NCBI GenBank assembly: GCA_002705795.1
Contig: PAHG01000012.1
Span: 26,397 to 59,479, forward strand
Direction of reading: 5' to 3'
Source: Gammaproteobacteria bacterium
GTDB lineage: Bacteria; Pseudomonadota; Gammaproteobacteria; Pseudomonadales; Litorivicinaceae
Length of the DNA: 33,083 nucleotides
A program made the position numbers and the translations under genes. Below the pieces are notes generated by a model, which searched no databases, had not been told where the DNA came from, and saw nothing but the letters and a program-made list of their open reading frames with translations. Shown piece by piece: positions 18,025-22,066 of the stretch (positions within the stretch are counted from its first letter, which is position 1; the number at the start of each line of letters is the position of its first letter).

Positions 18025-18894
18025 GTGATCCAGTATCGCGGTCGGTTTGCACCCTCAGCAACCGGCCCGTTACATCTAGGGTCTATCTTCGCTGCGCTGA
18101 TTAGCTACGTTCATGCGAAGCACCATCAAGGTGAATGGCTGATCCGTATTGATGATCTTGATGAGAAGCGTTGTAAGCAGACCTACGTCGACTCTATATT
18201 AGAATGTCTCAACGAATTTGAATTGAAATCCTCCGAGCCAGTTCGCTTCCAAACCGACAGAATCACTCGCTACGCGCAAGCCTTTAACACACTAGAAACG
18301 AACGGTCTTCTGTATTCGTGTGACTGCTCCCGAAACTCGTTACCTTGCGGCCCCTACCCAGGTTTCTGTCGACACCAAATCGGCAAGCCCCTCATCAGCG
18401 ATTACGCAGTTCGCATCGATACTAACGAGATCGATTTAACGATCGACGATCAGATTACGGAGCTTCAAGGCAGCGACGCGCCCGGTGACTTCATTATAAA
18501 GAGGCGAGATGGTCTATTTGCTTATCAGCTCGCGTGCGCCGTAGATGAGCATATCGACCAAATTACCCACGTGATTCGCGGTATTGATCTCCAAGAATCA
18601 ACAATCATGCAACGATTTATAGCAGAACGACTTGGGTATCGGAGTCCAATGTATGGACACTTCCCCATTCTATTGGGCTCAGATGGAACGAAGCTTTCAA
18701 AACAAACATTTGCGAGACCTGTCGACTTGAGCCATCCCGGCCAAAGTTTTGCAGCTATTTCCCGGCTCTTGTTACTAAACGATACGCCCAGCCACAAAGA
18801 CAGACCAAATGTTTGGATCGATTATTTTCTATCGCTAGATAATTTAATCTCCATCATAACGGGCGTTTCAGAAGCGAATACCCTTTCAGGGTAG
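18025..18894 (+). CDS. gluQ: Glutamyl-Q tRNA(Asp) synthetase
   Basis: 289 aa, GTG start; RFAPSATGPLHLGSIFAALISYVHAK, IDDLDEKRC, CDCSRNSLPCGPYPGFCRH; follows dksA. Confidence 0.93.
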   Translation: MIQYRGRFAPSATGPLHLGSIFAALISYVHAKHHQGEWLIRIDDLDEKRCKQTYVDSILECLNEFELKSSEPVRFQTDRITRYAQAFNTLETNGLLYSCDCSRNSLPCGPYPGFCRHQIGKPLISDYAVRIDTNEIDLTIDDQITELQGSDAPGDFIIKRRDGLFAYQLACAVDEHIDQITHVIRGIDLQESTIMQRFIAERLGYRSPMYGHFPILLGSDGTKLSKQTFARPVDLSHPGQSFAAISRLLLLNDTPSHKDRPNVWIDYFLSLDNLISIITGVSEANTLSG

Positions 18895-18927: not shown

Positions 18928-20256
18928 ATGGCTACGCTACTTCTCGTTACAGACGAAGCTATTGTTCGCAAATCAATTCAAATGGGCCTCGAACAGCAAG
19001 GGCACCAAATTCTGTCTGCCAAATCACTTAAAGAAGTTATGGCGGGTAGTTTTGATGTCGATTGCGTCATTAGCGAGCATTGGCTACCCGATGGGTCAGG
19101 CATTGATTTGATTTCGCATTTCAAACCAATTCCTCTAATTCTTTTAGTCGGGCAAGTATCGCTACAGGCCGGTATTATCGCGATGCGTAAAGGGGCATTC
19201 GACTGTTTCACAAAACCCGTCGACCACCAAGATCTGTTCCGCGCTATAGAAAAAGCTTCAGCAGACTGTCCTACCAGCAAAGACAACGCCATGATTGGAG
19301 AATGCGATGTAATGCTTAAGCTTAAAAAGCAAATAGTACGGGTCGCTCCTCTGGATACTACAATTCTTATTGGAGGTGAGTCAGGTACGGGCAAAGAGCT
19401 TGTTGCGCAATCCATTCATCAAATGTCCTCACGCACCGAGAAAGAAATGATTTCAGTGAACTGTGCGGCAATCCCGGAGTCTCTCATTGAAGCCGAACTG
19501 TTTGGCCACGTAAAAGGCGCATTTACAGGCGCGACTCATGACCGGGCTGGTTTAATCGAAACCGCCGACGGTTCTACATTATTTCTAGATGAAATTGGCG
19601 AACTTCCATTGGAGGCTCAGTCAAGATTACTTAGAGTGCTTCAGGAGGGAGAGATCCGCCGAGTAGGGAGTACGGATCGAACATATGTCGACGTTCGACT
19701 CGTCGCTGCCACACATCGTAACCTCCTGGAAATGGTCTCCAAAGGACTTTTTCGTGAAGATTTATACTACCGGCTTAATGTAATCGAGCTCAGATGTCCG
19801 CCACTCAAAGAGCGCGGCAAAGATATTGAAATGCTGGCAGATGCTTTCCTTGACCGCTTGAAGCAACAAATGAATCGACCAGAGCTTAAGTTTAGTAGCA
19901 ACGCAAGGGCGGCTATTGATGGTCATAGCTGGCCCGGTAACGTTCGAGAGCTGGGAAATGTGATTGAACGGGCTGTCGTTCTCTGTGAGGGCCCTCTCAT
20001 TGATCACTTAGACCTTGGGCTCCCGAACACGATAAACCAAGGGCACGAGTTCTCCGCTGGTGAGCAACGATCCCAGGGTCGTGCACAGCCTACGATGTCA
20101 CTTGAAGACTACTTTCAGCACTTCGTTCTATCCCATGAAGAACATATGAGCGAAACGGAGCTAGCCAAGCGATTGGGCATCAGTCGAAAGAGTCTGTGGG
20201 AACGTAGGAACCGACTTAAAATTCCGCGGCGCAAAGACGATCAATCGAATTTGTAA
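18928..20256 (+). CDS. cbrB: CbrB-like sigma54-dependent response regulator with degenerate receiver domain
   Basis: 442 aa; Walker A GESGTGKE, sigma54-contact motif GAFTGA, Walker B GSTLFLDEIGELP, Fis-type HTH SLEDYFQHFVLSHEEHMSETELAKRLGISRKSLWERRNRLKIPRRK closely resembling remembered Pseudomonas CbrB; between gluQ and pcnB as in Pseudomonas. Confidence 0.85.
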   Translation: MATLLLVTDEAIVRKSIQMGLEQQGHQILSAKSLKEVMAGSFDVDCVISEHWLPDGSGIDLISHFKPIPLILLVGQVSLQAGIIAMRKGAFDCFTKPVDHQDLFRAIEKASADCPTSKDNAMIGECDVMLKLKKQIVRVAPLDTTILIGGESGTGKELVAQSIHQMSSRTEKEMISVNCAAIPESLIEAELFGHVKGAFTGATHDRAGLIETADGSTLFLDEIGELPLEAQSRLLRVLQEGEIRRVGSTDRTYVDVRLVAATHRNLLEMVSKGLFREDLYYRLNVIELRCPPLKERGKDIEMLADAFLDRLKQQMNRPELKFSSNARAAIDGHSWPGNVRELGNVIERAVVLCEGPLIDHLDLGLPNTINQGHEFSAGEQRSQGRAQPTMSLEDYFQHFVLSHEEHMSETELAKRLGISRKSLWERRNRLKIPRRKDDQSNL

Positions 20257-20290
20257 CAAGCTAATGTTACAAAAAGTAACTAATAGTAAC
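20251..20290. promoter_or_regulatory. Candidate upstream activating sequence (CbrB-type half-site cluster)
   Basis: TTGTAAC (20251-20257), GTTACAA (20266-20272), GTAAC (20276-20280), GTAAC (20286-20290). Four half-sites in 40 bp, including perfect inverted repeats TTGTAAC-N8-GTTACAA and GTTAC-N5-GTAAC, ~100-140 bp upstream of a -24/-12 promoter. Confidence 0.6.
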
Positions 20291-20359
20291 TTTTTTGCTC
20301 CGAAATATCTAAACACTACGTCTAACTGAATTGCCCCAGCGCCCTAGAAAATCATTTTA

Positions 20360-20372
20360 AATCAGGTATTTA
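20360..20372 (+). promoter_or_regulatory. Candidate IHF-binding site
   Basis: AATCAGGTATTTA matches WATCARNNNNTTR at every defined position; lies between the UAS cluster and the -24 element. Confidence 0.5.
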
Positions 20373-20388
20373 TTCCAATTAAGCCAAT

Positions 20389-20405
20389 TTGGCACAGCAT
20401 GTGCA
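20389..20405 (+). promoter_or_regulatory. Sigma54 (-24/-12) promoter
   Basis: TTGGCAC-AGCAT-GTGCA: GG at 20391-20392 and GC at 20403-20404, exact N10 spacing; predicted +1 near 20416. Confidence 0.8.
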
Positions 20406-20415
20406 ACCTAAATTG

Positions 20416-20687
20416 GTGTTCGGGATAAGACCAATAAAAAAGAACGCTGCCAGCGAAAAAAATAACAAGATAGCTGGACAAGATTACGGTTCACTGTGAG
20501 AACTTAGGTTCATGGGAGCAGGATTGCTTCCCCAGGCCGATAAAAATAACAATGCGAAAGCTGAGGCCTTGGTTGCACGAATGCAACTTGAAGTTGAGAT
20601 TGCACACTGAAAGGTAATTTTTAGATGCTCGGACAATAAATATAAATGACGAGCAATTATATAGAGGGGCGAAAGCCCCTTTTTTAT
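20416..20687 (+). ncRNA. CrcZ-like Hfq/Crc-sequestering small RNA (candidate)
   Basis: Predicted from the sigma54 +1 to the intrinsic terminator. No supported ORF on +. AANAANAA motifs at 20433-20440 (AATAAAAA), 20461-20468 (AATAACAA) and 20545-20552 (AATAACAA), plus a near match at 20635-20642; hairpin GTTGCA-CGAA-TGCAAC at 20572-20587 and imperfect hairpin near 20513-20534. Same locus position as Pseudomonas crcZ (between cbrB and pcnB). Confidence 0.75.
20665..20686 (+). terminator. Rho-independent terminator
   Basis: AGGGGC-GAAA-GCCCCT followed by TTTTT; 6-bp stem with GNRA loop and U-tract. Confidence 0.88.
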
Positions 20688-20734
20688 TTCTCGGCTCTGG
20701 TATCATTTGCGGGTTATGCGAGTGGAGCCCTCTT

Positions 20735-22066
20735 TTGTTTTCGGTGTTTAAAAAGAAACCTTCCATCACTGGTATCGAGGTATTCAAAGACGTAATCTCT
20801 CAGGAATATCACGGCATTAATCACCGGGACCTCTCGCATGGGAGTCTCCGCGTTATCGAAATCCTCCAGCGGTCCGGTCATGAAGCCTATTTAGTGGGAG
20901 GGGGAATAAGAGACTTACTGCTGGGAAAAAATCCTAAAGACTTCGACGTCGCAACCAACGCTAAACCTGCTGAAATCCAAAAGCTATTTAGAAAGTCCCG
21001 CATCATCGGCCGCCGATTTCAAATTGTTCATGTCCGCATGGGGCCCGAAATCATCGAAGTAACGACGTTCAGAGGCGCCGCTGAAAACAGTCACAAGCGA
21101 CAAGCAAATGCTTCGGGGATGCTCGTTCGCGACAATGTCTTTGGATCAGTGGAAGATGACGCGGTTCGCCGTGACTTCACAATGAATGCACTCTATTACA
21201 ACCCCTCAAATAATGAGGTAATAGATTTCGTCGGAGGATACGATGATCTCGAAGATGGTGTAATTCGGATCATCGGTGATCCGGAAACGCGCTATCGAGA
21301 AGACCCAGTGCGCATGCTCAGAGCTGTGCGGTTTATTGGCAAGTTGGGGCTAAAGCTAGAGACTGAAACAGCCGAACCAATTCAGCGACTCGCCCCTCTA
21401 CTAAGAGACGTCTCTCCTTCCCGATTGTTTGATGAAATCCTGAAGTTACTTCAAGCGGGACATGGTCATTCAACATTTCCGCAGCTTTTAAAATATGACC
21501 TGTTGCGGCCTCTTTTTCCGCAATCTGAAGCTCTAATAACTGAAGCTGACAGTCTGCGCCATCGACGACTTATCGATCTAGCACTTTTAAATACAGATAC
21601 GCGACTAAACGAAGGTAAATCAGTCACCCCCGCTTTCTTATATGCGTCACTGCATTGGCCACAAGTTCAATATCGCTGGGTTGAACTGGAGAAGGAAGGG
21701 CACGGCCGGACACAAGCTCTAACGATAGCGTGCTCTGAAACGCTCGATTTTAATCAACAATTCATCGCCATACCCAAAAGATTCAGCATCACCATACGAG
21801 AGATATGGGAGATGCAGGTGAGGTTGGAAAAGCGACATGGCCGTCGCCCCGAATCGATCCTTGAACATCCAAGATTCCGCGCGGGTTATGACTTCTTGCT
21901 TTTACGAGAACGATCCGGAGAAATGCCGGGTGGTCTCGGCGAATGGTGGACTCAATACCAAATAGCCGATGAGGCCCAGCGTCGCGGTCTTATTGCAGCA
22001 GTCAATGACGGCGAACTAGAGCAGCCAAAACGCTACCCACGGAAAAAATCGAGGCAGCGTGACTAG
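20735..22066 (+). CDS. pcnB: Poly(A) polymerase
   Basis: AYLVGGGIRDLLLGKNPKDFDVATNAKPAEIQKLFRKSRIIGRRFQIVHV...RRDFTMNALYYNP; start TTG 20735 or GTG 20744. Confidence 0.94.
   Translation: MFSVFKKKPSITGIEVFKDVISQEYHGINHRDLSHGSLRVIEILQRSGHEAYLVGGGIRDLLLGKNPKDFDVATNAKPAEIQKLFRKSRIIGRRFQIVHVRMGPEIIEVTTFRGAAENSHKRQANASGMLVRDNVFGSVEDDAVRRDFTMNALYYNPSNNEVIDFVGGYDDLEDGVIRIIGDPETRYREDPVRMLRAVRFIGKLGLKLETETAEPIQRLAPLLRDVSPSRLFDEILKLLQAGHGHSTFPQLLKYDLLRPLFPQSEALITEADSLRHRRLIDLALLNTDTRLNEGKSVTPAFLYASLHWPQVQYRWVELEKEGHGRTQALTIACSETLDFNQQFIAIPKRFSITIREIWEMQVRLEKRHGRRPESILEHPRFRAGYDFLLLRERSGEMPGGLGEWWTQYQIADEAQRRGLIAAVNDGELEQPKRYPRKKSRQRD

Follow-up and report, generated by a model that had tools for sequence, protein, structure and literature searches.

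Does the short motif that follows an activator gene in a gammaproteobacterial genome act as a promoter, and what would it switch on? The stretch analysed here in full (hereafter the window) comprises 33,083 nucleotides of contig PAHG01000012.1 and carries, between a cbrB-like gene and pcnB, the motif TTGGCACAGCATGTGCA (positions 20389..20405, + strand), which a preliminary description had read as a sigma54 promoter directed into a candidate small RNA (sRNA). The motif and its neighbours form the dksA-gluQ-cbrB-sRNA-pcnB locus, known in Pseudomonas as that of CbrB activating crcZ, and comparison of related genomes indicates that TTGGCACAGCATGTGCA very probably serves as a true sigma54 promoter, through which the activator encoded next to it switches on a CrcZ-like sRNA. 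Taken as a whole, we find it quite likely that this promoter is driven by a CbrB that has lost its kinase and is active by default, and that the arrangement is decaying in some lineages. The preliminary description had recognized neither the CbrB-crcZ arrangement nor three of its features in this genus: the missing sensor kinase, a receiver that should not be phosphorylatable in the usual way, and the loss of the promoter, then of the activator, in some sister genomes.

A predicted sigma54 promoter downstream of cbrB

In TTGGCACAGCATGTGCA, GG at 20391-20392 is followed, after ten bases, by GC at 20403-20404, placing the -12 position at 20404 and the predicted +1 at 20416. The sequence, coordinates and exact GG-N10-GC spacing are thus those first reported, as are the two positions that differ from TGGCACG-N4-TTGCW. 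The box begins 132 nt beyond the cbrB stop codon, which ends at 20256, in agreement with the approximately 135 bp given earlier. The consensus match alone proves little because matches with up to three mismatches occur at chance level (51 in the window for 50 expected) and several sites in the window have two mismatches; we therefore dismissed it as evidence in itself. When GG-N10-GC was made mandatory and the pattern YTGGCACGRNNNTTGCW was scored, TTGGCACAGCATGTGCA ranked first among the 208 GG-N10-GC sites of the window, with 12 of 14 scored positions. Sites scoring as high are expected 0.5 times per random window, and the chance of finding one on the + strand of the 478-nt intergenic region is about 0.006.

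The decisive support is comparative, namely the conserved place of the box among congeners. A comparable GG-N10-GC box occupies the same position in 13 of the 19 genomes of the genus (OM252/Litoricola-type) that have the sRNA, with TTGGCAC, TTGGCAT, GTGGCAC or CTGGCAT as the -24 part, and the conserved GTTC of the 5′ block of the RNA lies 28-30 nt downstream of the first base of the box in the box-bearing genomes. Comparable boxes also follow cbrB in Pseudomonas, Azomonas, Marinobacter and Billgrantia. No sigma70-like promoter was found in 20200-20800 of the window. A second GG-N10-GC present within the sRNA of three loci (L003-L005; TTGGAACTGAGATTGCA) was rejected: its GG is not conserved and its TTGCA is held by an RNA stem.

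Upstream of the box, a putative CbrB-type binding array (20253..20290, + strand) consists of four units, GTAAC at 20253, GTTAC at 20266 and GTAAC at 20276 and 20286, which are spaced by about 10-13 bp and run across and beyond the cbrB stop codon. This locus is the only place in the genome at which the GTAAC-N5-GTAAC pair is present, which fits well with the earlier suggestion of a self-contained activator-target pair. In Pseudomonas putida, CbrB binds TGTTAC-N12-14-GTAACA-N15-19-GTAACA (PMC8871633). An IHF-like site, AATCAGGTATTTA (20360..20372, + strand), departs by one mismatch from WATCAANNNNTTR, which is matched exactly in four congeners; it lies in a stretch that four box-less genomes lack. 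The order of parts is identical to that of the P. putida crcZ promoter, i.e., CbrB subsites, IHF and GG-N10-GC (PMC6296734, PMC8871633). Between array and IHF-like site, about 60 nt past the cbrB stop, the motif TAGGTCTAA / TACGTCTAA (window 20317-20326) is conserved in the aligned genomes of the genus, box present or not; it is possibly a second regulator site or a promoter element.

The window's genome encodes rpoN, hfq and crc, and thus has RpoN together with an activator bearing the GAFTGA loop. CbrB would bind the GTAAC array right after its own stop codon, IHF would bend the DNA between array and box, and CbrB would contact the RpoN-RNA polymerase at the -24/-12 box, with the RNA starting at about 20416.

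A CrcZ-like RNA and an activator without its kinase

The predicted sRNA extends from this +1 to the end of an intrinsic terminator (20416..20685, + strand; terminator at 20663..20685). Its fold is far more stable than that of shuffled sequences (z = -6.1) and its 5′ stem, GUGUUC/GAACGC, starts at 20416. In a comparison of 13 genomes, 25 of the 67 pairs have both partners changed with the pairing preserved, a value reached by 0 of 500 shuffles, and the proposed partners pair in 97% of cells, as compared to 31-50% when partners are slid. A-rich loops resembling CA motifs occupy hairpin 1 (ACCAATAAAAAAG, 20430..20442), hairpin 2 (AAATAACAAGA, 20460..20470), an inner hairpin (AAAAATAACAATG, 20542..20554) and the hairpin preceding the terminator (GACAATAAATATAAATG, 20632..20648), all on the + strand; AANAANAA motifs are enriched in 14 of 14 genomes. 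The RNA thus offers several CA (AAnAAnAA) motifs in accessible loops in a genome with hfq and crc, as expected of a CrcZ-like RNA. The RNA also has a conserved core (20482..20620, + strand) in which a long stem, GATTACGGTTCACTGTGAGAACT with GAGATTGCACACTGAAAGGTAATTT, encloses three hairpins; a model of this 150-nt core (R1) matches 19 of 22 genomes of the genus and none of 94 others. The best Rfam match is CrcZ (RF01675) over the full model length (23.6 bits, E 2e-4), and the same model gives 278 bits for Pseudomonas and 53 bits for Marinobacter. We call the RNA CrcZ-like rather than filing it as Rfam CrcZ because its score is under gathering and its core is specific to the genus. A small protein encoded in the core was ruled out: an open reading frame (ATGAGATTACGG...) opens in some congeners, but neither the window nor L012 has its start, and the conservation is that of paired positions, at the RNA level.

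By analogy with Pseudomonas CrcZ, the RNA would expose its A-rich loops, bind Hfq (with Crc) and relieve the translational repression of target mRNAs. The Crc homologue lies at an argB-pyrE-crc-rph locus and has degenerate catalytic residues. Throughout the genus these residues are replaced (CLQDVR, GDFGV and DDRVP in L134, G000:C26:72745-73515) in a protein that is still conserved, consistent with a non-nuclease role.

The activator gene (18928..20256, + strand) encodes an NtrC-family protein of 442 amino acids with REC, AAA+ and HTH domains (Pfam matches to Response_reg, Sigma54_activat and AAA lid). It is an orthologue of CbrB, being about 50% identical to the Pseudomonas protein along its length and encoded in the same gluQ-cbrB-sRNA-pcnB synteny. 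Its GAFTGA sigma54-contact loop (residues 197-202; 19516..19533, + strand) is intact. Its input side has changed. The phospho-acceptor position (Asp52 of Pseudomonas CbrB) is Glu50 (codon 19075..19077, + strand), and glutamate stands there in 14 of 14 genomes of the genus with a complete receiver, while the sister genus and all other aligned members of the order keep aspartate. The first acidic-pocket residue (Glu8 in Pseudomonas CbrB) is replaced by Thr8 (codon 18949..18951, + strand), as in the other receivers of the genus, in which the switch threonine has become Gly, Ser or Asp and the lysine is kept.

The gene is not adjacent to cbrA, and a search of its own genome for CbrA returned only weak matches of kinase-domain strength (best E 1e-13). 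CbrA appears to be absent throughout the genus; the window's genome lacks both the cognate CbrA and the receiver aspartate of a CbrAB two-component system, and the receiver is predicted not to be phosphorylated in the usual way. In the sister genus (G024, L039:17-1108), a kinase of 364 amino acids resembling the PAS-HisKA-HATPase end of CbrA is encoded 11 nt before cbrB; having no transporter domain, it is intermediate between a full CbrA and none. Most genomes of the genus, though not the window's own as far as we could find, encode a hybrid kinase of 1304 amino acids (SSF-PAS-PAS-HisKA-HATPase-REC; L221:805-4716, - strand, in LSUCC0096), which may resemble CrbS-type acetate sensors and which accounts for the longer CbrA matches in congeners. 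It was rejected as a displaced CbrA on account of its hybrid architecture, of similar matches found beside a true CbrA in other members of the order and of its absence from the matches in the window's own genome.

Because CbrA is missing, Glu replaces Asp, and the acidic pocket and switch threonine are changed, the activator is most likely phosphorylation-independent and active by default. The Asp-to-Glu change D61E activates LuxO (PMC4878744), and natural pseudo-receivers carry Glu more often than any other substitute (PMC12632262), making default activity of CbrB plausible in this genus. The output of sRNA would then be set by the level of CbrB, by IHF or by other inputs, not by a carbon signal via CbrA.

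Losses of box and activator in sister genomes

Six of the 19 genomes (G005, G008, G012, G014, G016 and G019) keep the sRNA without a box. GAFTGA is replaced by KKLTAA in G012 and by EELTSV in G005; in G014 the loop reads GAFTNA, and Walker B and arginine-finger residues are damaged as well; five stops make cbrB a pseudogene in G016, and in G008 the gene is reduced to a remnant between gluQ and the RNA. G019 alone combines a missing box with an intact GAFTGA. Every one of the 12 genomes that have a box and an AAA+ domain that could be read retains GAFTGA, so that 12 genomes have both, five are box-less with GAFTGA broken or the gene lost and one is box-less with an unbroken GAFTGA (Fisher P = 0.0007, uncorrected for kinship). 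Mapped onto a pcnB tree, these are three losses of the box and two of GAFTGA, each of the latter inside a box-less lineage, a number of events too small to support a formal test corrected for kinship. The other sigma54 activators readable in box-less genomes keep GAFTGA or GSFTGA. Loss of rpoN was rejected as the cause of box loss in G005, G012, G014, G019 and G008, where the gene remains (no match was found in G016, which is 56% complete).

Possible replacement -10 elements, read by eye, are TATGAT in G019, CATAAT in G014 and TGGTTTACT in the G005 group. Most likely, the kinase was lost and Asp changed to Glu first, the promoter was replaced next and the activator decayed last: once independent of the signal, some lineages would swap the sigma54 promoter for a simpler one, and the unneeded GAFTGA loop, followed by the cbrB gene, would decay while the RNA was kept.

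The earlier reading, in which a sigma54 promoter faces a real sRNA and depends on the GAFTGA activator encoded upstream, is therefore supported by several lines of comparison, all drawn from sequence: a box conserved with hardly any variation in its spacing, activator repeats together with an IHF-like site ahead of it, a covarying sRNA whose 5′ stem starts at the predicted +1, the presence of rpoN, hfq and crc, and the loss of GAFTGA only in lineages without the box. Several points weigh against it or against its wider explanation. The coupling argument is carried by only two independent losses of GAFTGA, and a box-bearing genome that is 92% complete, G003, gave no rpoN match. The genomes of the genus are mostly metagenome-assembled or from single cells, and the receiver falls beyond the contig end in G006, G003 and G011. 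The CrcZ gathering score of 95 is not reached and no Rfam family matches at gathering threshold; the central domain of the sRNA is not in Pseudomonas CrcZ. Finally, with the switch threonine also changed, Glu50 may not act as a phosphomimic, and some pseudo-receivers are independent of the residue at the Asp position (PMC12632262).

These points bear on three other explanations. A box that matches by chance, with the sRNA transcribed everywhere from a sigma70-type promoter and CbrB acting elsewhere, would agree with the frequency of low-stringency matches and with the persistence of the RNA without any box in six genomes. We consider it very improbable in view of the position and spacing conserved in 13 genomes, the comparable boxes across the order, the confinement of GAFTGA loss to box-less lineages and the lack of any sigma70-like site found in 20200-20800. 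It is also unlikely, albeit less so, that the RNA is not a CrcZ-type Hfq/Crc decoy and instead pairs with other RNAs or binds a protein, its active part being the 150-nt core and its regulatory output a different one. Conservation is indeed strongest in the long-stem core, absent from Pseudomonas and from the sister genus, and the Rfam CrcZ score is far under gathering; but locus, promoter logic, several A-rich loops and the presence of hfq and crc all match CrcZ.

A more serious contender, to which we nevertheless give the smaller share of our confidence, retains the promoter and the RNA and takes CbrB as a pseudo-receiver protein under another control (a small ligand, a protein partner or its own abundance) instead of default-active, Glu50 being a by-product of lost phosphorylation. 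Replacement of the switch threonine and of one acidic-pocket residue weakens the case for a phosphomimic, other forms of control have been described for pseudo-receivers (PMC12632262), and the receiver, still 77-86% identical among close relatives, probably does something. Yet Asp-to-Glu is a classic activating change in this class of protein (LuxO D61E, PMC4878744) and no residue other than Glu occurs in 14 genomes. We thus continue to favour a default-active CbrB. Its boldest extension seems to us slightly less than an even prospect: that throughout this marine genus the carbon-sensing CbrAB-CrcZ switch has become a circuit without a signal, CbrA being lost and CbrB locked on through a natural Asp-to-Glu change, and that at least two lineages passed from sigma54 to sigma70 promoter control, after which the activator decayed in stages (loss of GAFTGA, pseudogene, deletion) with the RNA remaining under strong structural constraint.

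The locus and its relation to known systems

The source genome (1.79 Mb, 31 contigs, 91% complete) has as nearest named relatives HIMB30, LSUCC0096 and uncultured Litoricola single cells, all of the OM252 marine clade (PMC8269220). The gene order in the window is dksA, gluQRS (18025..18894, + strand, NCBIfam), the activator, the sRNA, pcnB (20735..22066, + strand, NCBIfam), folK, panB and panC; dksA, gluQRS, the activator and pcnB were assigned by profile, and folK, panB and panC from reading translations. Pseudomonas has the same order except that both cbrA and cbrB lie between gluQ and crcZ, and cbrA sits between gluQ and cbrB in most of the order as well. Neither cbrB nor the sRNA was found in three incomplete genomes of the genus (G007, G017 and G021), reflecting an assembly gap or a true loss.

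CbrAB-CrcZ has been described as unique to Pseudomonadaceae (PMC8871633). Contrary to this statement, full-length cbrA-cbrB with a downstream sigma54 box occurs in Marinobacter (L109), Billgrantia (L089) and other members of the order, and Marinobacter also has a weak CrcZ match. The parts of the system can thus be followed across the order into the OM252 clade, where the sensing half has been removed. Nature has in effect run an experiment here on the purpose that a CrcZ-type RNA serves once carbon signals stop reaching it, and on the steps by which a sigma54 circuit comes apart; because the intact version is present in two isolates available in culture (HIMB30 and LSUCC0096), the predictions are testable. 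The system is of a known kind, CbrB-crcZ; in the literature searched, we found no description of a pseudo-receiver CbrB, nor of an orphan, non-phosphorylatable CbrB with sister lineages at different stages of losing sigma54 control.

Several known systems share parts of this picture. Bacterial pseudo-receivers lacking the aspartate have in common with it an orphan regulator, Glu at the Asp position and the replacement of other key residues (PMC12632262). LuxO-qrr of Vibrio likewise has an NtrC-family activator driving a sigma54-dependent sRNA, and Asp-to-Glu makes LuxO constitutively active (PMC4878744); however, the LuxO change is a laboratory mutant whereas the Glu described here is natural in a whole genus, and the modules are not homologous. 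The NtrC proteins of Caulobacter and Rhodobacter capsulatus, which have lost GAFTGA, work from sigma70 promoters (PMC10274813), and this could also be where the G005/G012 and G014 proteins end up. Unlike the latter, they are working regulators with a phosphorylatable Asp; because pseudogene formation and deletion follow the loss in sister genomes here, decay is as likely as reuse for CbrB without GAFTGA.

The closest relatives are CbrB-crcZ (and crcY) of Pseudomonas and Azotobacter, which share with the window the gluQ-cbrB-sRNA-pcnB order, the sigma54 box after cbrB, the GTTAC/GTAAC activator sites, the IHF site and an sRNA with A-rich motifs and an intrinsic terminator. The window differs from them in having no cbrA and Glu for the receiver Asp, in the spacing of activator sites (about 10-13 bp instead of about 20), and in an RNA of about 270 nt instead of about 400 nt, with a genus-specific core stem and an Rfam score under gathering.
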